Shown here: piece after piece, positions 39,531 to 53,054 of the stretch
Layout: each line of letters begins with the position of its first letter
How positions within the stretch are numbered: the first letter of the stretch is position 1
Origin: Curvibacter microcysteis
GTDB taxonomy: Bacteria > Pseudomonadota > Gammaproteobacteria > Burkholderiales > Burkholderiaceae_C
Assembly (NCBI RefSeq): GCF_028649455.1
Contig: NZ_JAQSIO010000010.1
Coordinates: 1 to 64,000, forward strand
Direction of reading: 5' to 3'
Length of the DNA: 64,000 bases
The notes under the pieces: model-generated
What the model was told of the DNA's origin: nothing
The model's input: only the letters and a program-made list of their open reading frames with translations
Database searches by the model: none
Made by a program: the position numbers and the translations under genes

Positions 39531-39675
39531 CGGAGCAGAAGTGTAGGCCAGAGCCCTTCCCTCGGCGGCTGCCCCACGCAACGGCCTGGTCCCAGCAGGG
39601 TTAGCCCCCACAGGCGACGCGGGCCAGGCCCCTGCGCCCAGCCGCGCCTGGCTGTGAATCTTGCACAATCAGCCC

Positions 39676-40302
39676 ATGACCGAGGCATTGCGCATTGTGG
39701 TGGTCGCCCCGGACCTGGCCATACAAGACCCCGAGGACGATCACGCTGTTTCTCAGGCTGAGCGCTCGCGCAGCCTGCGCATTGGCTTGCTCGAAAACGG
39801 CTTCAACCTGATCGCCACGCTGCCCGCCGACGTGTTTTTGACCGAGCGCCTGGCCCAGCTGCAGCCCGACCTCATCGTGGTCGACGCCGAAAGCGAGGCG
39901 CGCGACGCCCTGGAGCACGTGGTGCTGGCCACGCGCGACGCGCGGCGCCCCATCGTCATGTTCACCAATGACCAGGACACCTCACACGTGCCCGACGCAG
40001 TGGCCGCTGGCGTGACCGCCTACATCGTGGCGGGTCTGTCGTCCCAGCGCATCCGCCCCATCCTGGACGTGGCCATGGCTCGCTTTCAGCACGAAGAGCG
40101 CTTGCGCCGCGAGCTGGCCGAGGCCAAGACCGAACTGCACCAGCGCAAGGTCATCGACCGCGCCAAAGGCCTGCTGATGCAGCGCCAAAACCTCAGCGAG
40201 CAAGCGGCCTACGACAAGCTTCGCCGCGCTGCCATGGACAAAGGCCTCAAGGTGGTCGAGGTCGCGCAGCGCGTGCTCGACGTGGCCGACCTGCTGGGTT
40301 GA
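39676..40302 (+). CDS. nasT: ANTAR-domain antiterminator, NasT type
   Basis: 208 aa. An N-terminal pseudo-receiver (about 5-125) with Asp 70 (LIVVDAESEARDALEHVV) and VMFTND, followed by AYIVAGLSSQRIRPILDVAMARF; the usual receiver Lys is missing, as in NasT. A 15-20 residue acidic insertion (DPEDDHAVSQAERSRS) follows the first strand. A coiled helix leads to the ANTAR domain (155-205, RKVIDRAKGLLMQRQNLSEQ). ANTAR proteins bind leader RNA to prevent termination; two matching leaders lie downstream. No NasS partner gene is adjacent. ATG 39676 is preferred over a TTG at 39661. Confidence 0.92.
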   Translation: MTEALRIVVVAPDLAIQDPEDDHAVSQAERSRSLRIGLLENGFNLIATLPADVFLTERLAQLQPDLIVVDAESEARDALEHVVLATRDARRPIVMFTNDQDTSHVPDAVAAGVTAYIVAGLSSQRIRPILDVAMARFQHEERLRRELAEAKTELHQRKVIDRAKGLLMQRQNLSEQAAYDKLRRAAMDKGLKVVEVAQRVLDVADLLG

Positions 40303-40349
40303 TGCCCCAGCTCGCTGCGTCGGGCGGCGCAGCGCAGGTCATGGTGCAG

Positions 40350-40389
40350 CGCACAACTCAGGTGCAAGCCCAAGCGCGAAGCTGGTGCA
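40350..40389 (+). promoter_or_regulatory. Two NtrC-like sites upstream of nrtA
   Basis: Sites of the form TGCACC-N5-GGTGCA: c-GCAC-a-actca-g-GTGC-a (40350-40366, 10 of 12 positions) and a-GCGC-g-aagct-g-GTGC-a (40373-40389, 9 of 12). Their centres lie about 118 and 95 bases before the expected start of the sigma-54 promoter, and 23 bases (two helical turns) apart. Confidence 0.65.
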
Positions 40390-40449
40390 CCGAAGCACGT
40401 CCCCAGGTCCAGGACCGCCAAAATCCCACGCACAACCCCGCAAGTCACC

Positions 40450-40465
40450 TGGCACAGGGTTTGCT
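40450..40465 (+). promoter_or_regulatory. Sigma-54 promoter of nrtABD
   Basis: TGGCACA-GGGT-TTGCT matches the -24/-12 consensus TGGCACG-N4-TTGCW with exact spacing. Transcription should start near 40476, giving a leader of about 165 bases before nrtA. Confidence 0.88.
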
Positions 40466-40504
40466 TAATCCGTCGCAATGACCCCAGTGGGTCACCTGAC
40501 AGAG

Positions 40505-40605
40505 CAGGTCCAAAGGCGGGCTTGATCTGTCTCAAGGACAAAGGCGTCCCCACCTCTTGCCGAGCCCCTGCGGGCTGACGGCGAGCGTGTGAGGACGCCT
40601 TTTTT
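40505..40605 (+). promoter_or_regulatory. ANTAR-controlled leader RNA of nrtABD: two hairpins and terminator
   Basis: Hairpin P1 (40505-40524): CAGGTCC/GGGCTTG stem with loop AAAGGC. Hairpin P2 (40536-40549): GGAC/GTCC stem with the same loop AAAGGC. Both loops have A at position 1 and G at 4, the known ANTAR target. The P2 3' side (GGCGTCC) is also the 5' strand of a terminator: AAGGCGTCC (40541-40549) pairs with GGACGCCTT, ending in a T-tract (40600-40605). P2 and the terminator cannot form together. Confidence 0.88.
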
Positions 40606-40640
40606 GCTTTTCTGTTCCGCCCAGTCCCAAGGAGTGCCCC

Positions 40641-41885
40641 ATGACCCATCTGTTGAAAACCAGCCTGAGCCGACGCGCCGTCCTGCAAACCGCAGCCGTC
40701 GGGGCCGCAGGCCTGAGCCCCGCCCTGCGCACCCTGGTGCACGCAGCGGGCTCCGACAAGCCCGAGAAGGAAGAGGTCAAGATTGGCTTCATCCCGCTGA
40801 CGGACTGCGCCAGCGTGGTCATGGCCTCGGTGCTGGGCTTTGACAAAAAATATGGCGTCAAGATTGTGCTCAGCAAGGAAGCCAGCTGGGCCGGCGTGCG
40901 CGACAAGCTGGTCAACGGTGAACTGGACTTCGCCCATGTGCTGTACGGCCTGATCTACGGCGTGCACTTGGGCATTGGGGGCCCCAAGAAGGACATGGCC
41001 AACCTGATGACCCTGAACAACAACGGCCAGGCCATCACCCTGTCCAAGAAGCTGGCCGACAAGGGCGCCGTGGACGGTGCCAGCCTGGCCAAGCTGATGG
41101 GCACGGAAAAGCGCGAATACACCTTTGCCCAGACCTTCCCCACCGGCACCCACGCCATGTGGCTGTACTACTGGCTGGCCAGCGTGGGCGTGAACCCGCT
41201 GAAGGACGCCAAGGTCATCACCGTGCCGCCGCCGCAAATGGTGGCCAACATGCGGGTGGGCAACATGGACGGCTACTGCGTGGGCGAACCCTGGGGCCAC
41301 CGCGCCATCATGGACGGCATTGGCATCACCGCCGTCACCACCCAGGACATCTGGAAGGACCACCCCGAGAAGGTGCTGGGCACCACGGGTGACTTCGTCA
41401 AGAAGAACCCCAACACCTGCCGCGCCGTGATGATGGCGGTGCTCGAAGCCAGCCAGTGGATTGACGCCAGCCTGCAAAACAAGCTGAAGATGGCCGAGAC
41501 CATTGCCGACAAGTCCTATGTCAACACCAGCGTGGATGCCATCAACCAACGCATCCTGGGCCGCTACCAGAACGGCCTGGGCAAGACCTGGGACGACCCC
41601 AACCACATGAAGTTCTTCAACGACGGCGCAGTGAACTTCCCCTACCTGTCCGACGGCATGTGGTTCCTGACCCAGCACAAGCGCTGGGGCCTGCTCAAGG
41701 ACCACCCGGACTACCTGGCCGTGGCCAAGCAGATCAACCAAGTCGACCTGTACAAGGAAGCCGCCAGTGGCCTGAAGATCAGCGTGCCCAAGGACGCGAT
41801 GCGCAGCAGCAAGCTGATCGACGGCGTGGTCTGGGACGGCAAGGACCCGAAGAAGTACGCCGACTCCTTCAAGGTCAGCGCCTAA
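40641..41885 (+). CDS. nrtA: Nitrate ABC transporter substrate-binding protein NrtA/NasF
   Basis: 414 aa. A twin-arginine type signal (LSRRAVLQTAAVGAAGLSPA, residues 9-28) precedes an NrtA-type binding domain: VKIGFIPLTDCASVVMAS, ASWAGVRDKLVNGELDFAHV, QTFPTGTHAMWLYYWLASVG and VGEPWGHRAI. It binds nitrate in the periplasm and hands it to NrtB. It has an AAGGAG ribosome site and is the first gene after the leader terminator. The exported signal argues against its being the cytoplasmic NasS sensor. Confidence 0.93.
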   Translation: MTHLLKTSLSRRAVLQTAAVGAAGLSPALRTLVHAAGSDKPEKEEVKIGFIPLTDCASVVMASVLGFDKKYGVKIVLSKEASWAGVRDKLVNGELDFAHVLYGLIYGVHLGIGGPKKDMANLMTLNNNGQAITLSKKLADKGAVDGASLAKLMGTEKREYTFAQTFPTGTHAMWLYYWLASVGVNPLKDAKVITVPPPQMVANMRVGNMDGYCVGEPWGHRAIMDGIGITAVTTQDIWKDHPEKVLGTTGDFVKKNPNTCRAVMMAVLEASQWIDASLQNKLKMAETIADKSYVNTSVDAINQRILGRYQNGLGKTWDDPNHMKFFNDGAVNFPYLSDGMWFLTQHKRWGLLKDHPDYLAVAKQINQVDLYKEAASGLKISVPKDAMRSSKLIDGVVWDGKDPKKYADSFKVSA

Positions 41886-41907
41886 GCCCCCAGCCCAGGA
41901 GATCGCC

Positions 41908-42819
41908 ATGGTCAGCGCCGTTTTCCATCACCCCCTCGAGACGACCGCCCCGGCGGCCGTCAGCCCCACCCAACCCGCCAGCGCCGCTGCGTCGAAAGAA
42001 GTCCGCCCCATGAGCCCCCCCAAACGCATGCCCTACGACTGGCGCGGCTTCTGGCTGCGCGTGCTGCCACCCTTGATGGGCTTGGGCTTGTTGGTGGGTT
42101 TGTGGGCCATCGTGTCGATCTCCACCGCCAGCGCCATTCCGTCGCCGCTGGAAACTTTCAAGCAAGCGGTCGACGTGTTCAGTGACCCCTTCTACCGCAA
42201 GGGCCCCAACGACCAGGGCGTGGGCTGGAACGTGCTGTTCTCGCTGCAGCGCGTGGCGCTGGGCTTCGGCCTGGCCGCGGCCGTGGGCATCCCGGCGGGC
42301 TTCCTGATCGGGCGCTTCGAATTCCTGTCGCGCATGTTCAACCCGCTGATCAGCCTGCTGCGCCCGGTGTCCCCGCTGGCCTGGCTGCCGATCGGCCTGC
42401 TGGTCTTCAAGGGCGCCAACCCGGCCGCCATTTGGACCATCTTCATCTGCTCGATCTGGCCCATGATCATCAACACCGCGGTCGGCGTGCAGCGCGTGCC
42501 ACAGGACTACATGAACGTGGCCCGCGTGCTCAAGCTGTCGGAGTGGAAGATCTTCACCAAAATCCTGTTCCCCTCGGTGCTGCCCTACATGCTGACCGGT
42601 GTGCGCCTCGCGGTGGGCACGGCCTGGCTGGTGATCGTGGCGGCTGAAATGTTGACCGGTGGCGTCGGCATCGGCTTCTGGGTCTGGGACGAGTGGAACA
42701 ACCTCAACGTCAAGAACATCATCATCGCGATCTTCGTGATCGGCATCGTGGGCCTGCTGCTCGAATACGCCCTGGTCAAGATCGCCACCGCCTTCACCTT
42801 CGAAGAAGTGAAGAGCTGA
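41908..42819 (+). CDS. nrtB: Nitrate ABC transporter permease NrtB
   Basis: 303 aa with an N-terminal Ala/Pro-rich arm (about 40 residues) and six transmembrane helices. NrtB family stretches: FLIGRFEFLSRMFNPLISLL, RPVSPLAWLPIGLLVF, the coupling loop VPQDYMNVARVLKLSEWKIF and GTAWLVIVAAEMLTGGVGIG. It moves nitrate across the inner membrane. It lies 22 bases after nrtA with its own AGGAG. Confidence 0.95.
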   Translation: MVSAVFHHPLETTAPAAVSPTQPASAAASKEVRPMSPPKRMPYDWRGFWLRVLPPLMGLGLLVGLWAIVSISTASAIPSPLETFKQAVDVFSDPFYRKGPNDQGVGWNVLFSLQRVALGFGLAAAVGIPAGFLIGRFEFLSRMFNPLISLLRPVSPLAWLPIGLLVFKGANPAAIWTIFICSIWPMIINTAVGVQRVPQDYMNVARVLKLSEWKIFTKILFPSVLPYMLTGVRLAVGTAWLVIVAAEMLTGGVGIGFWVWDEWNNLNVKNIIIAIFVIGIVGLLLEYALVKIATAFTFEEVKS

Positions 42820-42846
42820 CCCCCACCACCCCACCGGAGACCTGCC

Positions 42847-43653
42847 ATGAACACCAGCAAGTACATTGAAATCCAGGGCGTGGAGCAAACCTTCCGCACC
42901 CCCAAGGGCACCTTCCCGGCGCTGCGCAACATCGACCTGAACATCGCCAAGGGTGAGTTCGTGGCCCTGATCGGGCACTCGGGTTGCGGCAAGTCCACCC
43001 TGCTCAACCTGATTGCGGGCCTGACCCAGCCCACCAACGGCGTGCTGCTGTGCGCCAACCGCGAAATCAAAGGCCCCGGCCCGGAGCGCGCCGTGGTGTT
43101 CCAGAACCACTCCCTGCTGCCTTGGCTGACCTGCTATGAAAACATCTTTCTGGCGGTCGAGCGCGTATTTGGCGGCAAAGAAAGCAAGGCCCAACTCAAG
43201 ACCCGCACCGAGGCCGCTCTGGCCCTGGTCGGCCTGACGCCGGCCGCGCAAAAGCGTCCCGGTGAAATCTCCGGCGGCATGAAACAGCGCGTGGGCATTG
43301 CGCGCGCCCTGTCCATGGAACCCCAGGTGCTGCTGATGGACGAGCCTTTCGGTGCCCTCGACGCGCTCACCCGCGCCAAGCTGCAGGACGAGCTGCTGGA
43401 AATCGTCGCCAAGACCCAGGCTACCGTGGTCATGGTGACCCACGATGTGGACGAGGCCGTGCTGCTGTCCGACAAGATCGTGATGATGACCAACGGCCCG
43501 GCCGCCACCATCGGCGAAGTGCTGTCCGTCGAGCTGGACCGTCCGCGCTCGCGTGTGGCGCTGGCGGAGAGCGCTCAGTACCTGGGCTACCGCAAAGCGG
43601 TGATCGACTTCCTCTACACCCGCCAGGCCCACGTCGAGAAAACCGCAGCCTGA
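42847..43653 (+). CDS. nrtD: Nitrate ABC transporter ATP-binding protein NrtD
   Basis: 268 aa. Walker A GHSGCGKSTLLNLIAG, Q-loop VVFQNHSLLPWLT, signature ISGGMKQRVGIARAL, Walker B VLLMDEPFGALD and switch His in VMVTHDVDEAVLLSDKIV are intact. It lacks the NrtA-like extension of NrtC, so the transporter is the three-gene type. It is the last gene before a terminator. Confidence 0.96.
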   Translation: MNTSKYIEIQGVEQTFRTPKGTFPALRNIDLNIAKGEFVALIGHSGCGKSTLLNLIAGLTQPTNGVLLCANREIKGPGPERAVVFQNHSLLPWLTCYENIFLAVERVFGGKESKAQLKTRTEAALALVGLTPAAQKRPGEISGGMKQRVGIARALSMEPQVLLMDEPFGALDALTRAKLQDELLEIVAKTQATVVMVTHDVDEAVLLSDKIVMMTNGPAATIGEVLSVELDRPRSRVALAESAQYLGYRKAVIDFLYTRQAHVEKTAA

Positions 43654-43695
43654 GCCCGCGCTGCGCCGCCATCCAAGCGCGGTCCGCCCCGAACC

Positions 43696-43730
43696 AGCCC
43701 CAGGCGCTACCAAGCGCCGGGGCTTTTTTC
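43696..43730 (+). terminator. Intrinsic terminator after nrtD
   Basis: AGCCCC-a-GGCGCT, loop ACCA, AGCGCC-GGGGCT, then TTTTTT. The stem is 12 bp with one bulged A. It separates nrtABD from the nitrate reductase unit. Confidence 0.9.
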
Positions 43731-43801
43731 ATGGGGCAAGGCCCCTCGTGACCCTGGGGTGATCAGGCCTGAAGCGCCCCACCGGCCAGCCATGCAGCGC
43801 A

Positions 43802-43818
43802 CGCCCCAAGCTGGTGCA
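43802..43818 (+). promoter_or_regulatory. NtrC-like site upstream of the nitrate reductase unit
   Basis: c-GCCC-c-aagct-g-GTGC-a fits TGCACC-N5-GGTGCA at 10 of 12 positions and shares its aagct centre with the second site upstream of nrtA. Its centre lies about 118 bases before the expected transcription start. Confidence 0.55.
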
Positions 43819-43901
43819 GCAAAGCCCGGCGGCGTGCACCACACCCCGACCTCACCCGGGGCCCCAAGCGCCATGCCGCAGCCGGACAGCAGCACCCAGC
43901 T

Positions 43902-43917
43902 TGGCACAGGCATTGCT
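43902..43917 (+). promoter_or_regulatory. Sigma-54 promoter of the nitrate reductase unit
   Basis: TGGCACA-GGCA-TTGCT, exact -24/-12 spacing, nearly identical to the nrtA promoter. The start should be near 43928, leaving a leader of about 160 bases. Confidence 0.88.
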
Positions 43918-43956
43918 TAGTTTTCGCATCAGCCCCCAAGGCTGTGGACTTCGGCA

Positions 43957-44045
43957 CTGCAATGGCGCAGCGCAGGGGTTCAAGGACGAAGGCGTCCCCA
44001 CCCGTTTGGCCCCTCGGGCCGAGCTTGGTGAGGGCGCCTTTTTTG
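43957..44045 (+). promoter_or_regulatory. ANTAR-controlled leader RNA of the nitrate reductase unit
   Basis: P1 (43957-43970): CTGC/GCAG stem, loop AATGGC (A1, G4). P2 (43984-43997): GGAC/GTCC stem, loop GAAGGC (G4 kept but G, not A, at position 1). The 3' side of P2 belongs to a terminator: AAGGCGTCCCCACC (43989-44002) pairs with GGTGAGGGCGCCTT (with a wobble and a mismatch), then a T-tract to 44044. The design copies the nrtA leader. Confidence 0.8.
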
Positions 44046-44088
44046 TTTTCTGAACCGCCAACAAGGGGGTTCACGCGACGGAGAGGCC

Positions 44089-45315
44089 ATGAGTGACAAG
44101 CAGAAACTGGTGATGGTGGGCAACGGCATGGCCGGCGTGCGCACCATTGAAGAACTGATGAAGCTGGCCCCGGACCGCTACGACATCACCATCTTCGGCG
44201 CCGAGCCCCACCCCAACTACAACCGCATCATGTTGTCGCCCGTGTTGGCCGGCGAGCAGACCCTGGACGAGATCGTGCTCAACCCGCTGGACTGGTACCG
44301 CTCGCACGGCATCACCCTGCACACCGGCAGCAAAGTGGTCGCCGTGGACCGCGTGAAGCGGCGGGTGCGCGCCGAAGACGGGACCGAAGCGGCCTACGAC
44401 CGCCTGCTGCTGTGCACCGGCTCCAAGCCCTTCATGCTGCCCGTGCCCGGCAACACCCTGCAAGGGGTGATGGCGTACCGGGACATCGCCGACACCCAGG
44501 CCATGATCGAAGCGGCCAGCCGCCCGGGCCATGCCGTGGTCATCGGCGGCGGCTTGCTGGGCCTGGAGGCGGCCAATGGCCTGCGCCTGCGCGGCATGGA
44601 CGTCACCGTGGTGCATGTGGGCGACTGGCTGCTGGATCGCCAACTCGACCAGTCCGCCGGCCGCCTGCTGCAAGACGCGCTGCAAGCGCGCGGCCTGGCG
44701 TTCCGCCTGGGGGCCCACACCGAGGCCCTGCTGGGCGACGAGGCCGGCCGTGTGCGCGCCCTGCGCTTCAAGGACGGCAGCGAGATCCCCGCCGATCTGG
44801 TGGTGATGGCCGTGGGCATCCGCCCCAACACCGAGCTGGCCGAGCAGATGGGCCTGCTGGTGAACCGTGGCATCGTGGTGCACGACACCCTGCAAACCGT
44901 CACCGATGCGCGCATCTACTCGGTCGGTGAATGCGCAGCCCACCGGGGCACGGCCTACGGTCTCGTGGCCCCGCTTTATGAGCAGGCCCAGGTGGCGGCC
45001 AACCACCTGGCTGAATGGGGCATGGCGCGCTATGCCGGCTCGCAGACCTCCACCAAGCTCAAGGTCACCGGCATCGACCTGTTCTCGGCCGGTGACTTCA
45101 TGGGCGGCGAGGGCAGCGAAGAAATTGTGCTCACCGACCCGGCCGGCGGGGTCTACAAGAAGCTGGTGCTGCGCGACGACAAGCTGGTGGGCGCCTGCCT
45201 GTACGGTGACACGCAGGACGGCAGCTGGTACTTCCAACTGCTGCGCGAGGGCGCCAGCCTGGGCTCTTTGCGTGGGCAATTGATGTTTGGCCCACCGGCC
45301 GAACGGGCTCACTGA
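44089..45315 (+). CDS. nasB: Nitrate reductase electron-transfer subunit, FAD/NAD(P)-binding (NasB/NirB N-terminal type)
   Basis: 408 aa pyridine-nucleotide-disulfide oxidoreductase fold. FAD motif VMVGNGMAGVRTIEEL near residue 8, NYNRIMLSPVLAGEQ, NAD motif AVVIGGGLLGLEAANGL near 150, and the second FAD site with IYSVGECAAHRGTAYGLVAP. It matches the first half of NirB; the siroheme nitrite-reductase half is absent. It probably carries electrons from NAD(P)H to NasA, whose C-terminal iron-sulfur domain could receive them. It has a GGAGAGG ribosome site. Confidence 0.88.
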   Translation: MSDKQKLVMVGNGMAGVRTIEELMKLAPDRYDITIFGAEPHPNYNRIMLSPVLAGEQTLDEIVLNPLDWYRSHGITLHTGSKVVAVDRVKRRVRAEDGTEAAYDRLLLCTGSKPFMLPVPGNTLQGVMAYRDIADTQAMIEAASRPGHAVVIGGGLLGLEAANGLRLRGMDVTVVHVGDWLLDRQLDQSAGRLLQDALQARGLAFRLGAHTEALLGDEAGRVRALRFKDGSEIPADLVVMAVGIRPNTELAEQMGLLVNRGIVVHDTLQTVTDARIYSVGECAAHRGTAYGLVAPLYEQAQVAANHLAEWGMARYAGSQTSTKLKVTGIDLFSAGDFMGGEGSEEIVLTDPAGGVYKKLVLRDDKLVGACLYGDTQDGSWYFQLLREGASLGSLRGQLMFGPPAERAH

Positions 45316-45335
45316 ACCGAAACGGATTCCCCACC

Positions 45336-46130
45336 ATGGCCTCCACCCCCATCACCCGCCTGAACCGGCGCCACTGGATCGCCCTGACGGCCTGCAGCGC
45401 CCTGCCCGCCTGGGCCCAACTCAATGACCTTGGCGATGCCATCAACACCGCCGGGCGCCAACGCATGCTGTCGCAACGCCTGAGCAAAGCCTGGCTGGCC
45501 CGGGTGCAACAAACTGGTGGGGCCCAGGCCCAGCAAGTGATGCAACGCTCCATCGAAGTCTTTGAACGCCAACTCAACGAGTTGCAGGCCTACGCCCCCA
45601 GCCCCAGCATCCGCAACACCTATGCCGAGCTGGACAGCGCCTGGCTCAGCTTTCGCGAGCAACTGCTGAACGCCCCGGCCTCGCGCAGCGGCGCCCAGGC
45701 CCTGTTGCAGGCCGATGGCCGGGTGCTGGCCCTGGCGCATCAAGGCACACAACAACTTGAGGCCCTGGCCACCCGCAGCGCCGGCCGCTGGGTCAACCTG
45801 GCCGGCCGCCAACGCATGCTGTCGCAGCGCATGGCGAAGTTCTATTTCGCGGCCGCCTGGCAAGTGGACGTGCCCACGGCCCGGCAGGAGATCAAGCTGG
45901 CCCGACAAGAGTTTGTCACCGCGGCCAAAGCCCTGAGCCAGGCCCCCGAGACCACCCAACGCATCGCCGAAGAACTGACCTTGGCCGAAGGCCAGTGGGT
46001 GTTCTTCGATGCGGCCCTGCAAGCCGAAGCCAGCAGCCCCAAGCAACTGACCGAGGTCTTTGTCAGCAGCGAAAACCTGCTGGCCGTGATGGACCGCGTG
46101 ACCCGCCTCTACGCCGCCCTGAAGACCTGA
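45336..46130 (+). CDS. Exported tandem PilJ-domain protein (putative nitrate/nitrite sensor)
   Basis: 264 aa. N-terminal RR-containing signal (LNRRHWIALTACSALPAWA, cleavage about residue 27). Two PilJ-type helical domains each carry a P-box-like motif: INTAGRQRMLSQRL (about 36-49) and VNLAGRQRMLSQRM (about 153-166). P-boxes bind nitrate in the NarX/NarQ sensors. There is no transmembrane helix after the signal, no output domain and no lipobox. It sits between nasB and nasA, 20 bases from each. A periplasmic nitrate/nitrite-binding role is inferred. Confidence 0.8.
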   Translation: MASTPITRLNRRHWIALTACSALPAWAQLNDLGDAINTAGRQRMLSQRLSKAWLARVQQTGGAQAQQVMQRSIEVFERQLNELQAYAPSPSIRNTYAELDSAWLSFREQLLNAPASRSGAQALLQADGRVLALAHQGTQQLEALATRSAGRWVNLAGRQRMLSQRMAKFYFAAAWQVDVPTARQEIKLARQEFVTAAKALSQAPETTQRIAEELTLAEGQWVFFDAALQAEASSPKQLTEVFVSSENLLAVMDRVTRLYAALKT

Positions 46131-46151
46131 GCCCCAGCCCGAGACCTGACC

Positions 46152-49001
46152 ATGACCTGCTCCGATGCCCTGCGCGAAACCCGCTCCACCTGCTCTTACT
46201 GCGGCGTCGGCTGCGGCGTCATCATCGAGTCGCGTGGTGCCACCATCACCGGTGTGCGCGGCGACCCCGATCACCCGGCCAACTTTGGCCGCCTGTGCAC
46301 CAAGGGCTCGACCCTGCACCTGACCGCCCGCCCCGAGGTCACACAGCAGACCCGGCTGCTGCAACCCCAGCTGCGCTTGCAGCGCCAGGCCAGCCCGCTG
46401 GCCCTGGACTGGGACAGCGCCCTGGACCTGGCCAGCCAGCGCCTGGCCGATGTGGTGCAGCGCCATGGTCCCAACGCACTGGGCTTTTACCTGTCGGGCC
46501 AATTGCTGACCGAGGACTACTACGTCTTCAACAAACTCGTCAAAGGCCTGCTGGGCAGCAACAACCTGGACACCAACTCACGCCTGTGCATGAGCAGCGC
46601 GGTGGCCGGCTACAAGATCACCCTGGGGGCCGACGCGCCACCAGCCAGCTACACCGACGTGGACCATGCCCACTGCCTGTTCATCTCCGGCAGCAACACC
46701 GCTTGGGCGCACCCCATCCTGTTTCGCCGCATCGAAGACGCCAAACGCGCCCGGCCCGAGCTGAAGATCGTGGTCATCGACCCTCGGCGCACCGACACCG
46801 TGGAGCTGGCCGACCTGCACCTGGCCCTGCAGCCTGGCACCGACGTCATGCTCTACCACGGCATGTTGCACTTGATGCTGCGCCAGGGCTGGACCCAGCC
46901 GGCCTACATCGCCGCCCACACGCATGGATTTGAAGCCCTGGTCGAACAAGTGCGCGACTGCACACCCGAACGCACGGCGCAAGTCTGTGGCATCTCGGTC
47001 GAGGACCTGCTTGAAGCCACGCGCCTGTTCGCCACCTCACCCGCCACCCTGAGCCTCTACTGCCAGGGCCTGAACCAGTCCAGCAGTGGCACCGATAAAA
47101 ACGCGGCGCTGATCAACCTGCACCTGGCCACGGGCCAGATCGGCCGCCCCGGTGCGGCCCCGTTCTCACTGACGGGCCAGCCCAACGCCATGGGCGGACG
47201 CGAGGTCGGCGGCCTGTCCAACCTGTTGAGCGCCCACCGCGACCTGGCCAACCCCGTGCACCGCGCCGAAGTGGCCGCCTTGTGGGGCGTGCCCGACGTG
47301 CCCAGCGTGCCGGGCAAATCCGCGGTGGAAATGTTCGAGGCCGCCGCCGACGGCGAGATCAAGGCCTTGTGGATCGCCTGCACCAACCCGGCCCAGTCCC
47401 TGCCCGACCAAGCCACGGTGCGCCGTGCACTGGAACGGGCCGAGTTCGTCGTGCTGCAGGAGGCCTTTGCCACCACCGCCACCGCGGCCTACGCCGACCT
47501 GCTGCTGCCCGCCACCACCTGGGGCGAAAAGACCGGCACCGTGACCAACAGCGAGCGCCGCATCAGCCGGGTGCGCGCCGCCACCCCGCCCAGCGGCGAG
47601 GCGCGCCACGACTGGGCCATCGGCGTGGCCCTGGCCCAGCGCCTGGAAGCCCGGCTGCGCCCGGGGCAAGCCAGCCTGTTTCCTTACGACACCCAGGACG
47701 CCCTGCGCGGCACCGAAGCCATCTGGAACGAGCACCGCGAATCCACCCGAGGCCGCGACCTGGACATCACTGGCCTCAGCTACGCCCTGCTCGATGCCCA
47801 AGGTCCCCAGCAATGGCCCTGGCCCAGCGGGGCCAGCCAAGGCAAAGAACGCTTGTACGAAGACGGCGTCTTCCCCACCCCCGACGGCAAGGCCCGCTTC
47901 CACAGCACGACCTACCACCCGGTGGCCGAAGCGCGGGACGAGGCCTACCCCTTCTCCCTCAACACCGGGCGCCTGCGCGACCAGTGGCATGGCATGAGCC
48001 GCACCGGCACCCTGGGCCGCCTGTTTGGCCATGTGGCCGAACCAGCCGTGCAAGTCAACCCGCAAGACCTGGCCCGCTTGGGCTGGGAAGACGGCGCCCT
48101 GGTGCGGGTGCGCTCGCGCCGGGGCCAGGTCGTGCTGCCGGTGCAGGCCAGCGCCGAACAGGGGCCGCAGCAGGTCTTCATCGCCATGCATTGGGGCCAG
48201 GAGTTCCTCGGCGGGCACGACGAGGCGGGCCAGGCCCTGACCGGGGTGAACGCGCTGCTGCCCTCGGCCTACTGCCCACGCTCCAAGCAACCGGAACTCA
48301 AGCACGCCGCGGTGCAGTTGGAAGCGGCCGCCCTGCCCTGGTCGCTGGTCGCCATGGCCTGGCTGCCAGCGCAGCAGGTGCTGCGCGTGCGCGAATCACT
48401 CAAGGCCCTGATGGCTGAGTTTGACTACAGCAGCTGCGTGCCCTTCAGCGACACCGTGCCGCTAGAACAGGCCCCGACCCAAAAGGCCGGCCTGCTGTTT
48501 CGCGCCGCCGCCAGCCGCGCCCCGGCCCCCGCGCTGCTGCGACAAATCGAGACGCTGCTGGGTCTGGACCCGCGCCAGGCCTTGCACTACAGCGACGCGA
48601 GCCATGACCAGTACCGCACCGTGCAAGTCTTGGCGGACGGCGAACAACGCCATGTGGGCGCTTGGCTGCTGGCGGGCGACACCCGCGCCCAAGCCTGGCT
48701 GCGCCCCCTGCTGCAAGAAGCGCAGGACGTGAGCGCCTACGGCCAACGCCTGCTGAGCCCTGGCGCCACACCGCCCGTGGCCCAAGCCGCACGCAGCGCC
48801 CTGGTTTGCAGCTGCCTGGGCGTCAACGAGCAGTCCATTCGCCATCAACTGGCCCAAAGCAGGGGATCCGACGACGAAAGGCTCAAAGAACTGCAGTGCG
48901 CGCTCAAATGTGGCACGAATTGTGGTTCTTGCGTCCCAGAGCTCAAGCGTTTGGTCCGGTGGGTCCGGCCCAACACCGAAGCCCCTGAATTGGCCATATA
49001 G
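46152..49001 (+). CDS. nasA: Assimilatory nitrate reductase, catalytic subunit
   Basis: 949 aa molybdopterin enzyme, cytoplasmic (no signal). The N-terminal [4Fe-4S] motif has Cys 14, 17, 21 and 49 (CSYCGVGCGV, GRLCTKGS). Molybdopterin domains follow (SRLCMSSAVAGYK, ISGSNTAWAHPI, LYCQGLNQSSSGTDKNAAL in part, TTWGEKTGTVTNSERRISRV). A dinucleotide-binding domain has RDQWHGMSRTGTLGRLFGH. The C-terminal [2Fe-2S] BFD-like domain has CSCLGVNEQSIRHQL and CGTNCGSC. It reduces nitrate to nitrite. Confidence 0.95.
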   Translation: MTCSDALRETRSTCSYCGVGCGVIIESRGATITGVRGDPDHPANFGRLCTKGSTLHLTARPEVTQQTRLLQPQLRLQRQASPLALDWDSALDLASQRLADVVQRHGPNALGFYLSGQLLTEDYYVFNKLVKGLLGSNNLDTNSRLCMSSAVAGYKITLGADAPPASYTDVDHAHCLFISGSNTAWAHPILFRRIEDAKRARPELKIVVIDPRRTDTVELADLHLALQPGTDVMLYHGMLHLMLRQGWTQPAYIAAHTHGFEALVEQVRDCTPERTAQVCGISVEDLLEATRLFATSPATLSLYCQGLNQSSSGTDKNAALINLHLATGQIGRPGAAPFSLTGQPNAMGGREVGGLSNLLSAHRDLANPVHRAEVAALWGVPDVPSVPGKSAVEMFEAAADGEIKALWIACTNPAQSLPDQATVRRALERAEFVVLQEAFATTATAAYADLLLPATTWGEKTGTVTNSERRISRVRAATPPSGEARHDWAIGVALAQRLEARLRPGQASLFPYDTQDALRGTEAIWNEHRESTRGRDLDITGLSYALLDAQGPQQWPWPSGASQGKERLYEDGVFPTPDGKARFHSTTYHPVAEARDEAYPFSLNTGRLRDQWHGMSRTGTLGRLFGHVAEPAVQVNPQDLARLGWEDGALVRVRSRRGQVVLPVQASAEQGPQQVFIAMHWGQEFLGGHDEAGQALTGVNALLPSAYCPRSKQPELKHAAVQLEAAALPWSLVAMAWLPAQQVLRVRESLKALMAEFDYSSCVPFSDTVPLEQAPTQKAGLLFRAAASRAPAPALLRQIETLLGLDPRQALHYSDASHDQYRTVQVLADGEQRHVGAWLLAGDTRAQAWLRPLLQEAQDVSAYGQRLLSPGATPPVAQAARSALVCSCLGVNEQSIRHQLAQSRGSDDERLKELQCALKCGTNCGSCVPELKRLVRWVRPNTEAPELAI

Positions 49002-49068
49002 CCAGAAGTCAGAAAGCTTCAGTGACAATCCGCGGCTCTGCTTCCAACACAAGAACACAGACAAGGCC

Positions 49069-49974
49069 ATGCCCATCAGTCACTACATCAAAGAAATCGG
49101 CCGCGGCAAGGAGGGAGCGCGTGCGCTCAGCCGCGAGCAGGCCGCCGATCTCATGGGCCAGGTGCTCGACGGCAGCGTCAGCGACCTGGAAATCGGCGCC
49201 TTTTGCCTGGCCATGCGCATCAAGGGCGAAACCCCTGAGGAGATGGCCGGTTTTCTGGATGCCACCCACGCGCGCACCGCACGCGTGCCCAGCACCCTGC
49301 GGCCGGTGGTGGTGCTGCCCAGCTACAACGGCGCGCGCAAATTGCCGGTGCTGACCCCGCTGCTCGCCTTGCTGCTGGCGCGCGAAGGGGCCAGCGTGCT
49401 GGTGCATGGCACGCCCACCGAAGACAGCCGCATCAGCGCGGCCTCGGTGTTGTCGGTGCTGGGCACCCCGTCGCTGGCCGCAGTGCGTCCGCTGCACGCA
49501 GGTGAAGTGGTGTTTGCCCCCACCGGCTTGCTGCTGCCGGGCCTCAAGCGCTTGCTGGACGTGCGCCGCGTGGTGGGCCTGCGCAACCCAGCGCACAGCC
49601 TGGTCAAACTCATGAGCCCTTGCGTCGGGCCCAGTGTGCTGGTCAGCAGCTACACCCACCCCGAGTACGCCCAGTCCATGGCAGCGACCTTGAGCCTGAC
49701 CGGCCAGCGCGCCCTGCTGTTGCGCGGCACCGAAGGCGAAGTGGTGGCCGACGCACGCCGCACGCCTGAAATGACCGGCTACGTGAACGGCCAGGCCCTG
49801 GCCCTGCAAGCCGCCCAAACCGGTGCACTGGTTCAAGTGCCCGAATTGCCGCGCGACATCAGCGCAGCCTCCACCGCCAGCTACATCCAACTGGTGCTGG
49901 CTGGCAAACTGCCCGTCCCGGCGCCCATTGCGCGCCAGGTCCAACACATCCTGCACCTCGTGGAACTGCCATGA
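49069..49974 (+). CDS. ybiB: YbiB-like nucleic-acid-binding protein (glycosyltransferase family 3 fold)
   Basis: 301 aa related to anthranilate phosphoribosyltransferase: an N-terminal helical domain (LSREQAADLMGQVLDGSVSDLEIGAFCLAMRIKGE, in part) and the larger domain with VLVHGTPTEDSRISAASVL and GLRNPAHSLVKLMSP. The TrpD substrate residues are not conserved; E. coli YbiB (TrpD2) binds nucleic acids. The start is ATG 49069 (MPISHYIKEIG). It overlaps cobA as ATGA, so it belongs to the nitrate operon, but its role there is unknown. Confidence 0.85.
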   Translation: MPISHYIKEIGRGKEGARALSREQAADLMGQVLDGSVSDLEIGAFCLAMRIKGETPEEMAGFLDATHARTARVPSTLRPVVVLPSYNGARKLPVLTPLLALLLAREGASVLVHGTPTEDSRISAASVLSVLGTPSLAAVRPLHAGEVVFAPTGLLLPGLKRLLDVRRVVGLRNPAHSLVKLMSPCVGPSVLVSSYTHPEYAQSMAATLSLTGQRALLLRGTEGEVVADARRTPEMTGYVNGQALALQAAQTGALVQVPELPRDISAASTASYIQLVLAGKLPVPAPIARQVQHILHLVELP

Positions 49975-50762
49975 CACACCCCCTGCCCCTGCAAGGCCAA
50001 TGCACCCTGGTGGGCGCCGGCCCCGGCGACCCCGAACTGCTCACCCTCAAGGCCCTCAAGGCCATCCAGGCGGCCACCGTGCTGCTGGTCGACGACCTGG
50101 TCAGCGACGAGATCGTGGCCATGGCCTCACCAAGCGCCCGCATCGTCTACGTGGGCAAGCGCGGCGGCTGCAAGTCCACCCCCCAGGCCTTCATCGAAAA
50201 ACTCATGATCACCGCCGTGCAAGAGGGTGAAAACGTGGTGCGACTCAAAGGCGGCGATCCCTTCATTTTTGGCCGCGGTGGTGAAGAGGTGGAGCACTTG
50301 CGTGCCGCTGGCATCGAGGTGGGCGTGGTCAACGGCATCACTTCCGGCTTGGCCGCTGTCACCTCGTTGGGGGTGCCCCTGACGCACCGAGAACACGCCC
50401 ACGGCGTGGTCTTTGTCACCGGCCACGCCAAGCCTGGCGACAGTGGCACCGACTGGCGCGCGCTGGCGGCCACGGCTCGCAGTGCCAAGCTCACCCTGGT
50501 GATCTACATGGGGGTCAGCGACGCACAACACATCCAGGCCGAATTGCTGCAGGGCCTGCCCGCCAGCACCCCGGTGGCCATCGTGCAACGGGCCAGCTTG
50601 CCCAGCCAACGTCACGCCACCAGCACCCTGGGTGAACTGTCGGCCACCCTCGTGCGCGAGGGCCTGGGCAGCCCCTCGGTGATCGTGGTGGGCGACGTCA
50701 TCAGCGGCGTGCAAGCTGCTTTGCAAACCCGCTCAGGCGAGCTGCGCACCGGCACGCACTGA
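49971..50762 (+). CDS. cobA: Uroporphyrinogen-III C-methyltransferase
   Basis: 263 aa SAM-dependent enzyme that makes precorrin-2 for siroheme, the cofactor of nitrite and sulfite reductases. Motifs: LVGAGPGDPELLTLKALKAI near residue 12, YVGKRGGCKSTPQAFI, VVRLKGGDPFIFGRGGEEVE and GITSGLAAVTSLGVPLTHRE. It lacks the CysG oxidase/chelatase half. Its place in this operon fits supply of siroheme to a nitrite reductase encoded elsewhere. Confidence 0.96.
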   Translation: MTHPLPLQGQCTLVGAGPGDPELLTLKALKAIQAATVLLVDDLVSDEIVAMASPSARIVYVGKRGGCKSTPQAFIEKLMITAVQEGENVVRLKGGDPFIFGRGGEEVEHLRAAGIEVGVVNGITSGLAAVTSLGVPLTHREHAHGVVFVTGHAKPGDSGTDWRALAATARSAKLTLVIYMGVSDAQHIQAELLQGLPASTPVAIVQRASLPSQRHATSTLGELSATLVREGLGSPSVIVVGDVISGVQAALQTRSGELRTGTH

Positions 50763-50794
50763 GCCACCGCCAGTCAACTTCGTCGGGGTCCGCC

Positions 50795-50810
50795 TGGCCC
50801 GTCATTTGCT
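50795..50810 (+). promoter_or_regulatory. Sigma-54 promoter of the PilJ-chemoreceptor gene
   Basis: TGGCCCG-TCAT-TTGCT fits the -24/-12 consensus with exact spacing. The start should be near 50821, 28 bases before the gene. I could not find a convincing NtrC pair upstream, within the end of cobA, and there is no room for an ANTAR leader. Confidence 0.78.
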
Positions 50811-50848
50811 TAACACTGGCGGTGTTCACCAGGGAATGAAAGATCGAT

Positions 50849-51562
50849 ATGGCTGCTCTTGCTCTGCAAAACAATTCGGCCTACCAACCCAGTGCGACGG
50901 CAGGCCGTGCCGCCGCGCACAGCCCCGCCAAGCCCCCGGCGGCGACGGGGGAGATCTCCCTGGTCAACATGGCCGCACGCCAACGCATGCTGTCCCAGCG
51001 CATGATCTTGCAAACGGTGCTGGCCTCCCAAGGTCACCCCACCCAGTTGGCCGCCGCCCGGCAGTCGCTGGCCTTGTTCACCACCAGCCAACAGAAGCTG
51101 CGCCAAACCGGCCGAGAACTCGCGCCTGACCTGGCCCAGATCATCCTCAAGGCCTATGAAGGCCCCCAAGGCGCAGGGCCGACCGTGGACGCCTTCATCC
51201 AGCAAATCAGCGCCACCTTGGACCAGATCGAGCGGCAGGACCGGCGCATGCCCGACACCCTGGCCCAGCTGGTGGACCGCACCGACCAAGTGCTGGACGC
51301 CCTGAACCGCGCCACCACGGCCTTTGACCAGATCACCAGCGCCCAATCCCAAGCCATGATGCGCGAGCTGACCGGCATCGTGAACTCCATTCAAACCGTG
51401 GCCCGTGAAGCCAAGGTGGTGAGCTTCAACGCCCAGGTGATGGCGGCGCGGGCTGGCCAGCATGGGCGCGAGTTTGCGGTGGTGGCCAACGTGCTGTCCG
51501 GCATCACGGCTGAAATTGATGGCCTGTCCCTGAAAGCCATCTCGCTGACGGGCCGCAAGTGA
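50849..51562 (+). CDS. Soluble PilJ P-box protein with a truncated chemoreceptor signalling domain
   Basis: 237 aa, with no signal peptide or transmembrane helix. A 33-residue disordered start is followed by a PilJ-type domain with P-box SLVNMAARQRMLSQRM (about 37-52). From about 160 it turns into a methyl-accepting chemotaxis signalling hairpin: SIQTVAREAKVVSFNAQVMAARAG then HGREFAVVANVLSGITAEID (178-223), the CheA/CheW-contacting tip. Methylation helices are very short. It may link cytoplasmic nitrate or nitrite to chemotaxis arrays; this is inferred. Confidence 0.8.
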   Translation: MAALALQNNSAYQPSATAGRAAAHSPAKPPAATGEISLVNMAARQRMLSQRMILQTVLASQGHPTQLAAARQSLALFTTSQQKLRQTGRELAPDLAQIILKAYEGPQGAGPTVDAFIQQISATLDQIERQDRRMPDTLAQLVDRTDQVLDALNRATTAFDQITSAQSQAMMRELTGIVNSIQTVAREAKVVSFNAQVMAARAGQHGREFAVVANVLSGITAEIDGLSLKAISLTGRK

Positions 51563-51800
51563 GCCGCCGTCTGGGTGCGAACTGAACACGTGCTGGCACA
51601 AGCCCGGCGGCGCAGCGCCCGCGCTTTGGGGGCGCCCCTGCGACGCAAGCAATCACCATCGACCAGCCAAGACAGCCGCGCCACGAGCCAGCCCCCGCCG
51701 CACTGGGGATAATCGGGCGCCTATGCCCCGGCCCGGACCACGTTGTCTGCGCCCCTGCACCACACTGGTGCCCCGGGGCTGAATTTCCAGGAGCCTTGTT
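51563..51800 (+). other. Intergenic region before the FAD oxidoreductase gene
   Basis: GC-rich, 238 bases. I see no clear terminator T-tract, and no gene. The last bases carry CCAGGAGCC, the ribosome site of the next gene. Confidence 0.4.
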
Positions 51801-53054
51801 GTGAATGTCGATGTTGTGATCGTGGGTGCCGGTGCGGCCGGTCTGTTTTGCGCCGGGGTGGCGGGGCAACTGGGCTTGAAGGTGCTGGTGCTGGACCACG
51901 CCCCCAAGGTGGCTGAAAAAATCCGCATCTCGGGCGGGGGGCGCTGCAACTTCACCAACCGCGACGCCACGCCCGCCCAGTACCTGAGCGCCAACCCGCA
52001 CTTCTGCCGCAGCGCGCTGAGCCGCTACACCCCGCAGGACTTCATCGCCCTGGTGCAGCGCCACGGCGTGCCCTTTCATGAGAAGCACAAAGGCCAGTTG
52101 TTTTGCGACCGTTCCGCCGAGGACATCATTGAGCTGCTGCTCAAGGAATGCGCCGCCGGGGCCGCTGGCGGCAGCGTGACGCGCTGGCAGCCCTGTGCGG
52201 TGAAAAACATCCGCTACCACGACAGCCCGGCCTCTGCCGAGTCGACCGCGCCCAGCCTGGGCCGCTACGAACTGGACACGGATCAAGGCGTGGTGAGCTG
52301 CCACAGCGTGGTGGTGGCCAGTGGCGGCCTGTCCATTCCGAAGATCGGCGCCACGGATTTCGGCTACCGGGTGGCGCGGCAATTCGACCTGCGCCTGGTC
52401 GAACAGCGCCCGGGTCTGGTCCCACTGACCTTCGACGGCGCCGCCTGGGCTCCGTACGCGCAACTGGCGGGCCTGGCCTTGCCGGTGGCCATGGAGACCG
52501 GCAGCAAGAAAACCAAAGGCTTGTTCCTGGAAGACCTGCTGTTCACCCACCGGGGCTTGTCGGGCCCGGCGGTGCTGCAGATCTCCAGCTACTGGCAGGC
52601 CGGCTCGCCGATCCGCATCAACCTGGCGCCCGACCAAGACCTGCCCGCGCTGCTGGCCCGCGCCAAGGCCACTTCGCGCAAGCTGCTGGGCAACGAACTG
52701 GGTCAGCATGTGCCGTCCCGCCTGGCCGACGCCTGGGTGCAGCAAGATGCCGCCTGGCAACGCCCTTGCACCGACGTGACTGACAAAGCCTTGACCTCGC
52801 TGGCCGAGCGCCTGTCGCGCTGGGAGCTGGTGCCCACGGGCACCGAGGGCTACAAAAAAGCCGAAGTGACCCTGGGTGGCGTGGACACGCGCGACCTGTC
52901 GCAGCAAACCATGGAGTCGCGCCAACCCGGCCTGTTCTTCATCGGCGAGGTGGTCGACGTCACCGGCTGGCTGGGCGGCTACAACTTCCAGTGGGCCTGG
53001 GCCAGCGCCCACGCTTGTGCCCAGGGTTTGGCCGCGCGCCAGGGCAAGCTTTGA
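51801..53054 (+). CDS. FAD-dependent oxidoreductase, HI0933/YhiN family
   Basis: 417 aa flavoprotein of unknown substrate. FAD motif VDVVIVGAGAAGLFCAGVAGQ near the N-terminus, ISGGGRCNFTNRD (family signature, about 52-64), VVVASGGLSIPKIGATDFGY, LFTHRGLSGPAVLQISSYW and the C-terminal GLFFIGEVVDVTGWLGGYNF. It starts with GTG at 51801 after CAGGAGCC. No pathway is implied by its neighbours. Confidence 0.9.
   Translation: MNVDVVIVGAGAAGLFCAGVAGQLGLKVLVLDHAPKVAEKIRISGGGRCNFTNRDATPAQYLSANPHFCRSALSRYTPQDFIALVQRHGVPFHEKHKGQLFCDRSAEDIIELLLKECAAGAAGGSVTRWQPCAVKNIRYHDSPASAESTAPSLGRYELDTDQGVVSCHSVVVASGGLSIPKIGATDFGYRVARQFDLRLVEQRPGLVPLTFDGAAWAPYAQLAGLALPVAMETGSKKTKGLFLEDLLFTHRGLSGPAVLQISSYWQAGSPIRINLAPDQDLPALLARAKATSRKLLGNELGQHVPSRLADAWVQQDAAWQRPCTDVTDKALTSLAERLSRWELVPTGTEGYKKAEVTLGGVDTRDLSQQTMESRQPGLFFIGEVVDVTGWLGGYNFQWAWASAHACAQGLAARQGKL

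Follow-up and report, generated by a model that had tools for sequence, protein, structure and literature searches.

A predicted two-key control circuit for nitrate assimilation in Curvibacter microcysteis, combining NtrC/sigma-54 initiation with ANTAR antitermination

How many signals gate nitrate assimilation in Curvibacter microcysteis, and are uptake and reduction gated alike? The question is raised by positions 39,676 to 51,562 of the window, a 64,000-nucleotide stretch of contig NZ_JAQSIO010000010.1 (assembly GCF_028649455.1). The gene order is nasT, encoding an ANTAR protein, then the uptake genes nrtA-nrtB-nrtD (40641-43653), the reductase genes nasB-pilJ1-nasA-ybiB-cobA (44089-50762) and pilJ2 (50849-51562), all on the plus strand. 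An earlier reading of this DNA (the original prediction) proposed that both operons are initiated through NtrC and sigma-54 and antiterminated by an ANTAR protein, and the dyads, promoters, leaders and terminators found here fit that proposal. A two-key control circuit of this kind, acting on two operons, is the preferred reading, with a probability of about 0.72 on sequence evidence. Relatives are given working numbers (L, G) where they have to be told apart, and literature is cited by PubMed Central number.

Promoters and leaders of the two operons

Each operon begins with an exact -24/-12 element of the sigma-54 type (TGGCAC-N5-TTGCT). The first, TGGCACAGGGTTTGCT at 40450-40465 on the plus strand, precedes nrtABD, with a transcription start site (TSS) expected at ~40474. 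The second, TGGCACAGGCATTGCT at 43902-43917 on the plus strand, precedes the nasB operon, with a TSS expected at ~43926. No other exact match occurs in the 64 kb, which confirms the one exact promoter per operon of the original prediction. Among the best 80 NasT-related loci, nrtA was found in 69, and 69/69 have a site of sigma-54 type no further than 300 bp from it, compared with 0.17% of mononucleotide-shuffled versions of these stretches. No sigma-70 promoter was listed by the promoter scan for 39600-51700.

NtrC-like dyads, scored against the 14-position NtrC consensus, are found upstream of both promoters on the plus strand. The uptake operon has two, CGCACAACTCAGGTGCA (40350-40366) and AGCGCGAAGCTGGTGCA (40373-40389), each matching 11/14 consensus positions and centred at about -116 and -93, and the reductase operon has one, CGCCCCAAGCTGGTGCA (43802-43818), matching 12/14 and centred at about -116. 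These distances, for a TSS placed 24 bp past the start of the -24 element, compare with -118 and -95 in the original prediction; the presence of sites at both operons, with a second one at nrtA, stands. Sites of at least 11/14 number 14 in the whole window; across 106 promoter-upstream regions (the window's two included), 44% contain such a dyad versus 0.5% of mononucleotide shuffles. The best dyad of the window (13/14) is a separate one at 51756-51772, before an open reading frame (ORF) at 51801-53054, with no sigma-54 match there. NtrC itself was found to be encoded in the genome by a genome search. Having the -24/-12 element, upstream dyads and an encoded NtrC, both operons are classed by sequence as putatively NtrC/sigma-54-dependent. 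In a relative, Acidovorax citrulli, deletion of ntrC abolishes growth on nitrate (PMC10052978).

Downstream of each promoter, folding predicts two hairpins, P1 and P2, with an intrinsic terminator as the alternative to P2. In the nrtA leader these are P1 at 40498-40531 (hexaloop AAAGGC), P2 at 40536-40549 (GGAC-AAAGGC-GUCC, also placed by the covariance model) and the terminator at 40540-40605. Their counterparts in the nasB leader are P1 at 43946-43981 (hexaloop AAUGGC), P2 at 43984-43997 (GGAC-GAAGGC-GUCC) and the terminator at 43991-44044, all features of both leaders being on the plus strand. The predicted competition in both leaders is between P2 and a terminator that ends in a U run, and folding z-scores against shuffled sequence are -4.0 (nrtA) and -3.9 (nasB). 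The linker between P1 and P2 is 4 nt (nrtA) and 2 nt (nasB) when counted from full P1, and 11 and 13 nt from core P1.

The published ANTAR target is a pair of hexaloops in which position 1 is A (A1) and position 4 is G (G4) (PMC3369931). In every structural test made, the nrtA leader looks like such a dual-hexaloop target: its hexaloops are in tandem on stems of 3 bp or more, the loop is AAAGGC twice, giving A1 and G4 in each, and P2 overlaps the terminator. The nasB leader has the P1 hexaloop, but A1 is not found in both loops, and its P2 is predicted to close further, to a 5-bp stem with a tetraloop (-6.0 kcal/mol versus -4.0 for the hexaloop) as the minimum free energy (MFE) structure. It is thus best described as a variant that would work like a dual-hexaloop ANTAR target, rather than a strict member. 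The P2 hairpin of the original prediction is present in nasB, although its loop is GAAGGC with this tighter fold.

The original prediction would have been refuted by a lack of conservation of hairpin loops and terminators in related genomes, for which it suggested a covariance model. Strong conservation is seen instead. A model built from the leaders of 39 relatives, with the window left out, finds both of the window's leaders, at 40467-40554 (63.3 bits, E 6e-18) and 43921-44002 (39.1 bits, E 2e-10), the next-best match having 12.2 bits (E 0.055). These 39 sequences are an alignment of 41 leaders minus the window's two; the 41 were taken from 70 distinct leaders, excluding those with long P1-P2 inserts, short Polaromonas-type leaders and L042. 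In the 41, 90.2% of the cells of three helices are paired versus 31-48% when the structure is slid, a control that flatters the pairing because the structure was drawn from the same sequences. The covariation score is 0.367 versus 0.146 for shuffled alignments. With a model that included the window's leaders (R1), these two were the sole strong matches in the whole genome, and matches were found in 58/120 genomes of the same family at E 0.01 and in 18/274 from a sample of the class at E 0.001, both counts including the genome of the window. Rfam at gathering thresholds gave zero matches in the window.

A third ANTAR leader in the genome was considered and rejected: the next matches of R1 have E 0.046 or worse, and a second model (R2) has none at E 1 in 18 kb around nirB. 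Before nirB there is one strong hexaloop hairpin (loop AACGAC), with no P2 or terminator seen. In three relatives (L067, L086, L161), sigma-54 sites and P0/P1-like hexaloops (AACGAC) lie upstream of nirB/nasB, beside genes for the ANTAR-PilJ proteins described below; no clear P2 or terminator was found by eye in these leaders, and R2 has no match there. Other leaders of the type show further variation. Some Acidovorax leaders, that of L020 (10947-11067) among them, carry an insert between P1 and P2 that by eye forms a hairpin of its own. This puts core P1 to P2 at 23-44 nt, whereas EutV no longer acts when the spacing is extended by 20 nt. L177 (minus strand) and L210 (G085) have one more leader of this type, in which the P2 loop is GTTGGC; in L210 there are no matches to window proteins nearby.

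A terminator-like hairpin 3' of nrtD, between the operons (43703-43728, plus strand), supports separate transcripts for uptake and reduction, and together with the promoter of each operon it fits what had been proposed. It comes from a generic scan, which gave it as 43703-43718; that scan listed 8 terminators versus 9.9 in shuffles, i.e. no excess, and left the two long leader terminators unlisted.

A third hairpin and an operon-specific loop base

The leaders had been described as dual-hairpin leaders with a terminator. The hairpins and the overlapping terminator are present in both, but the hairpins are three, not two. The additional, promoter-proximal hairpin, P0, lies at 40479-40494 (plus strand) in the nrtA leader, as UGACC-CCAGUG-GGUCA when drawn with a hexaloop (the MFE structure closes further to a tetraloop), so that G4 is kept and A1 is lost. 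In the nasB leader it lies at 43930-43944 (plus strand) and has a 5-nt loop without the ANTAR signature. P0 is thus degenerate in both leaders of the window.

In the leaders of relatives, P0 starts a few bases past the expected TSS. At this place 86/106 leaders have a hairpin with a hexaloop and a stem of 4 bp or more, versus 17% of shuffles, although in some short leaders P1 may have been counted as P0. Only leaders with a sigma-54 match were kept among the 106, so the count is uninformative on promoter conservation. Those without a pattern-type P2 or U-run were dropped (e.g. L133, L182 and L185, the first two being read by eye), identical leaders were counted once, and close relatives were left unmerged. 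Five of the 86 have no assigned gene; among the other 81, A1 and G4 are both present in 61 (57/75 nrtA leaders and 4/6 nasB/nirB leaders), while loop positions 2, 3, 5 and 6 are variable. Among distinct nrtA P0 loops the proportion is 21/36, and such a loop occurs in 1.5% of all shuffles. P0 alone has 84.7% of cells paired in the 41 aligned leaders. Three hexaloop hairpins in a row are also seen in L228, L235 and L236, from two other families, although without a chance control. A three-hexaloop ANTAR leader is not named in the titles or abstract openings of the open-licence literature searched, including PMC3369931, PMC7496416, PMC8164766 and PMC8934654. By sequence and predicted fold, the leaders form a conserved three-hairpin class.

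The first base of the P2 loop differs between the operons. It is A in 81/90 and G in 9/90 nrtA leaders, but G in 7/10 and A in 3/10 nasB/nirB leaders (Fisher p 6.6e-5, kinship ignored); six leaders without an assigned gene have 5 A and 1 G. In the nine genomes where both leaders could be assigned, the nrtA and nasB/nirB bases are A and G in seven (the window's, L025, L082, L090, G010, G088 and G003), A and A in two (G085 and G012), and reversed in zero. G4 is the sole base-specific ANTAR contact, and A1 is thought to hold the loop open, being proposed to block cross-loop pairing and let G4 flip out (PMC8934654). If A1 keeps the loop open, G1 would do the opposite, and weaker ANTAR action is therefore predicted on the reductase operon. 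G1 may instead make the nasB P2 more stable against the terminator. The original prediction had both operons gated by both signals. Both do carry the promoter and the ANTAR leader, but their gating would be unequal if P2 base 1 matters.

The two-key circuit suggested by these sites may work as follows. Under nitrogen limitation, phosphorylated NtrC bound ~116 bp upstream would activate sigma-54 polymerase at each operon. The transcript would make P0 and P1 first. If no ANTAR protein is active, the 5' arm of P2 would pair downstream and the terminator would form; an active ANTAR dimer would load on P1, move to P2 and block the terminator, in line with the proposal that the EutV-type dimer binds one hexaloop at a time, P1 then P2 (PMC8934654). 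P0, degenerate in the window, is in most relatives' nrtA leaders a third ANTAR-type hexaloop and may give an earlier loading place. The reductase P2, its loop predicted to be closed by G1, would call for a larger amount or a stronger activation of the ANTAR protein than uptake does.

Several observations weigh against this reading. With one mismatch allowed, the -24/-12 sites in the window number 4, against a chance mean of 2.84, and 33/100 shuffles reach 4. The motif was rejected as stand-alone evidence because it falls to chance level in this way, and the promoter case thus rests on position and conservation. The P2 rule has the exceptions counted above (9/90 nrtA and 3/10 nasB/nirB leaders), and G052 has G1 at nrtA plus an A1 leader before an unassigned gene; in addition, the leaders come from related and hence non-independent species, a kinship left out of account by Fisher's test. 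P0 loops vary, several lineages having GNRA-like loops or no P0, and the role of P0 could be to stabilise the 5' end, with A1 and G4 tolerated. In the full form of this alternative, P0 is a mere 5' stability hairpin, the G1 loops are neutral drift, and the leaders are ordinary dual-hexaloop ANTAR targets. The P0 loops of the window, which lack the full signature, are consistent with it, as are the tetraloops of some leaders and the lack of P0 in others, such as the short Polaromonas-type leaders. However, A1 and G4 are kept while their loop neighbours vary, at frequencies well above the 1.5% of shuffles, and the stabiliser is judged conceivable, with the odds somewhat against it.

Nitrate sensing and the PilJ proteins

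The ANTAR gene before the operons is confirmed as nasT (39676-40302, plus strand), encoding a pseudo-receiver plus ANTAR antiterminator of 208 aa (Pfam ANTAR 5e-20). Its relatives in the PDB are 1s8n, 6wsh, 4akk and 1qo0. The best 80 NasT relatives are 74-86% identical and come from Rhodoferax, Acidovorax, Polaromonas and others, mostly Comamonadaceae. The window's NasT has no NIT domain match in Pfam, and it has an insertion of ~14 aa after beta-1 that is absent from three NasT proteins with a NasS-like neighbour. The original prediction let NasT allow read-through with nitrate, which is unsupported as written: in Paracoccus, NasT senses nitrate via NasS, and loss of NasS makes the system constitutive (PMC3795266), while here no NasS was found and the genome has a NIT-ANTAR protein.

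NasS was looked for in several ways in this genome, whose completeness is given as 99.99%. At E 1e-10 only NrtA and an ABC-transporter-linked protein on another contig (C8) match, and the same two are the only matches when a NasT-adjacent, NasS-like Caballeronia protein is the query. A genome search with PF13379 gave no further match above 65.1 bits, compared with 197-297 bits for three NasS-like proteins. The strong PF13379 protein on C8 is unlikely to be NasS, because permease and ATPase genes follow it. For the plasmid proteins, the NasS label is that of the present analysis, from their place beside NasT; their records describe them as CmpA/NrtA family or as nitrate transporter, and that of Caballeronia is featureless there. 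Since these searches yielded no NasS, the system is kept apart from NasS-NasT.

One alternative fills this gap with the uptake protein. The NrtA precursor, exported via twin-arginine translocation (Tat) and folded in the cytoplasm, would act as NasS for NasT until nitrate-bound or exported, making the uptake protein the sensor. In addition to the negative NasS searches, the Caballeronia protein beside NasT is nearer to the window's NrtA (44% identity) than to a Paracoccus NasS-like protein (36%), nrtA begins no more than 1.7 kb from the start of nasT in 60/69 loci, and Paracidovorax citrulli has no NasS gene between nasT and nrtA. Expression of a gene called nasS nevertheless falls without ntrC in P. 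citrulli (PMC10052978). Against NrtA as sensor, the Tat-like signal (SRRAVLQ, by eye) and the transporter partners point to a purely periplasmic role, and nrtA lies 1.8-8.6 kb from nasT in 9/69 loci. A sensory NrtA appears improbable.

A second alternative, also unlikely but with somewhat more in its favour, is that NasR alone antiterminates, with NasT constitutive or decayed and the leaders answering to the NIT-ANTAR protein. The genome's other ANTAR protein does have a NIT domain (NasR-type) and is encoded beside nirB-nirD. In L173, L174, L175 and L178, the gene immediately ahead of the leader and nrtA encodes NIT-ANTAR instead of NasT; L176 also has such a gene before nrtA, without a model match for the leader. 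However, in seventeen relatives the nasT beside the leader is the sole ANTAR match, with no NIT match better than 1e-20, and NasT is 74-86% identical in the best 80 loci. For the two-key circuit, the trans-acting protein would be NasT, NasR or both; with no NasS found, nitrate most probably enters via NasR or via another partner of NasT.

Candidate nitrate binders of another kind are encoded in the locus itself. PilJ1 (45336-46130, plus strand) is a tandem PilJ-PilJ protein, matched twice by the Pfam model, with a signal-like N-terminus (by eye). Exact nitrate N-boxes, a motif taken from PMC6381276, are found at 45441 and 45792 in pilJ1 and nowhere else in the window. An AlphaFold2 model has two four-helix bundles (mean predicted local distance difference test score, pLDDT, 86.5). 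By Foldseek, a half of PilJ1 superposes on the ligand-binding domain of the nitrate receptor McpN (6gcv) with a template modelling score of 0.77-0.78 by target length at 2.7-3.2 A and 21% identity; the probability is 1.00, although E is only 0.3-0.4. A PDB sequence search with pilJ1 gave nothing useful. By its modelled PilJ fold and N-boxes, PilJ1 is a McpN-type candidate nitrate binder. Counting fusions, 35/120 genomes have PilJ1 matches at E 1e-10 or better, and in L162, L172, L174-L179 and L093 a pilJ1-type gene lies between nirB/nasB and nasA.

PilJ is also found fused to ANTAR. In at least 12 of 120 genomes, ANTAR is directly followed by PilJ in one frame, and L067, L086 and L096 encode further such fusions. 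Six fusions and one of a named plasmid (L147) were scanned, and 7/7 have both domains above Pfam cut-offs. The fusion gene is divergent from nirB/nasB in 9/12 stretches, the other 3 showing no nirB/nasB. Receiver-ANTAR-PilJ-PilJ proteins are encoded at L160 4249-5610, L161 5560-6918, L165 4854-6248, L172 3164-4495 (minus strand) and L147 3086-4435 (minus strand; 449 aa). A structure prediction of one was poor (mean pLDDT 65.7) and was not used. These are possibly a further class of one-component nitrate antiterminators. No description of an ANTAR-PilJ fusion was found in the literature searched, including passages of PMC8199190 and PMC6363711; PMC6381276 makes a general mention of PilJ domains in transcriptional regulators.

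The proteins that may interchange in this role enter an extended form of the circuit, a relay of three stations in the nitrate leaders of Comamonadaceae. The ANTAR dimer would sit on P0 once this is out of the polymerase, then on P1 and P2; its sensors would be interchangeable (NasT, NIT-ANTAR, perhaps a receiver-ANTAR-PilJ-PilJ regulator); and a threshold set by P2 base 1 would open uptake before reduction. This extension is tentative and rather doubtful.

The remaining genes were assigned by profile scans of the window's proteins with Pfam and TIGRFAM/NCBIfam models and their cut-offs. NrtA (40641-41885; PF13379, 2.9e-101), which resembles an NrtA more than it does either of two alphaproteobacterial NasS-like proteins, is the periplasmic nitrate-binding protein, nrtB (41908-42819; TIGR01183 above cut-off) the permease and nrtD (42847-43653; TIGR01184 above cut-off) the ATPase. 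NasB (44089-45315) is a NirB-N-like flavin adenine dinucleotide (FAD) reductase without the sirohaem half. NasA (46152-49001) is an assimilatory nitrate reductase with a C-terminal BFD [2Fe-2S] domain, although the NasA-type NCBIfam models score below their own cut-offs. A ybiB-like gene (49069-49974; NF006005 above cut-off, scanned as the longer ORF 48910-49974) and cobA, for uroporphyrinogen-III methyltransferase (49971-50762; TIGR01469 above cut-off), complete the operon. Pfam matches are ANTAR, NMT1_2 (NrtA), BPD_transp_1, ABC_tran, NirB-type FAD reductase, molybdopterin oxidoreductase plus Fer2_BFD (NasA) and TP_methylase (CobA). The original list of an ANTAR gene, nrtABD, nasB, nasA and cobA holds, but pilJ1 and ybiB were omitted from the second operon, and the interval ends with pilJ2. 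No nitrite reductase gene is present in the window's reductase operon, which holds NasB and NasA; full-length nirB, a nirD-like frame (by eye) and the NIT-ANTAR gene (nasR) are clustered on a different contig.

PilJ2 (50849-51562, plus strand; Pfam) is a soluble PilJ domain joined to a methyl-accepting chemotaxis protein tip fragment and carries an N-box variant with A for G. The promoter motif scan places a third sigma-54-type site, TGGCCC-N5-TTGCT, before it at 50795-50810 (plus strand), without a hairpin leader. TGGC[CG]C-N5-TTGCT precedes pilJ2 in 6/6 inspected cases (the window and five others) versus 0/1000 shuffles. PilJ2 matches at E <1e-40 occur in 8/120 genomes, the window's included. 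This promoter possibly links nitrate assimilation to chemosensory proteins.

Comparison with known systems

The two-step model of ANTAR action, P1 then P2, rests mainly on EutV. In native leaders a third hexaloop at a fixed place is retained, degraded or lost, and A1 and G1 P2 loops occur side by side in one genome, which makes that model testable. NasT without a detectable NasS, and the PilJ-ANTAR fusions of relatives, bear on how nitrate reaches an antiterminator outside NasR and NasS-NasT.

In Klebsiella oxytoca, nasF is one operon with one leader. The window differs in having two operons with a nasT gene ahead of them while NasR is encoded elsewhere, and in leaders that show a third hairpin and, in one of the two, G1 in the P2 loop. 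NtrC control by nitrogen limitation and ANTAR antitermination of a nitrate-assimilation operon are common to both, NasR and NtrC being the regulators of nasF (PMC5424462). The NasS-NasT systems of Paracoccus, Azotobacter and Pseudomonas share the pseudo-receiver plus ANTAR NasT and a hairpin leader before the structural genes, two hairpins (HI and HII) having been studied in Paracoccus (PMC5424462); the window differs from them in that NasS was not found and in the ~14-aa NasT insertion. With the dual-hexaloop target of the EutV type, the nrtA leader has in common the A1/G4 loops of P1 and P2, the short linker and the overlap of P2 with the terminator, while the extra promoter-proximal P0 of the class and G1 in the reductase leader's P2 are differences. 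PilJ1 shares with the McpN PilJ domain the fold of a half and an exact N-box in both halves, but differs in its tandem PilJ, its signal-like N-terminus and its lack of a signalling domain. The two-key circuit is thus of a known kind, and what is new here lies in a class of leaders with three hairpins, in a loop base that goes with the operon and in regulators that are interchangeable.

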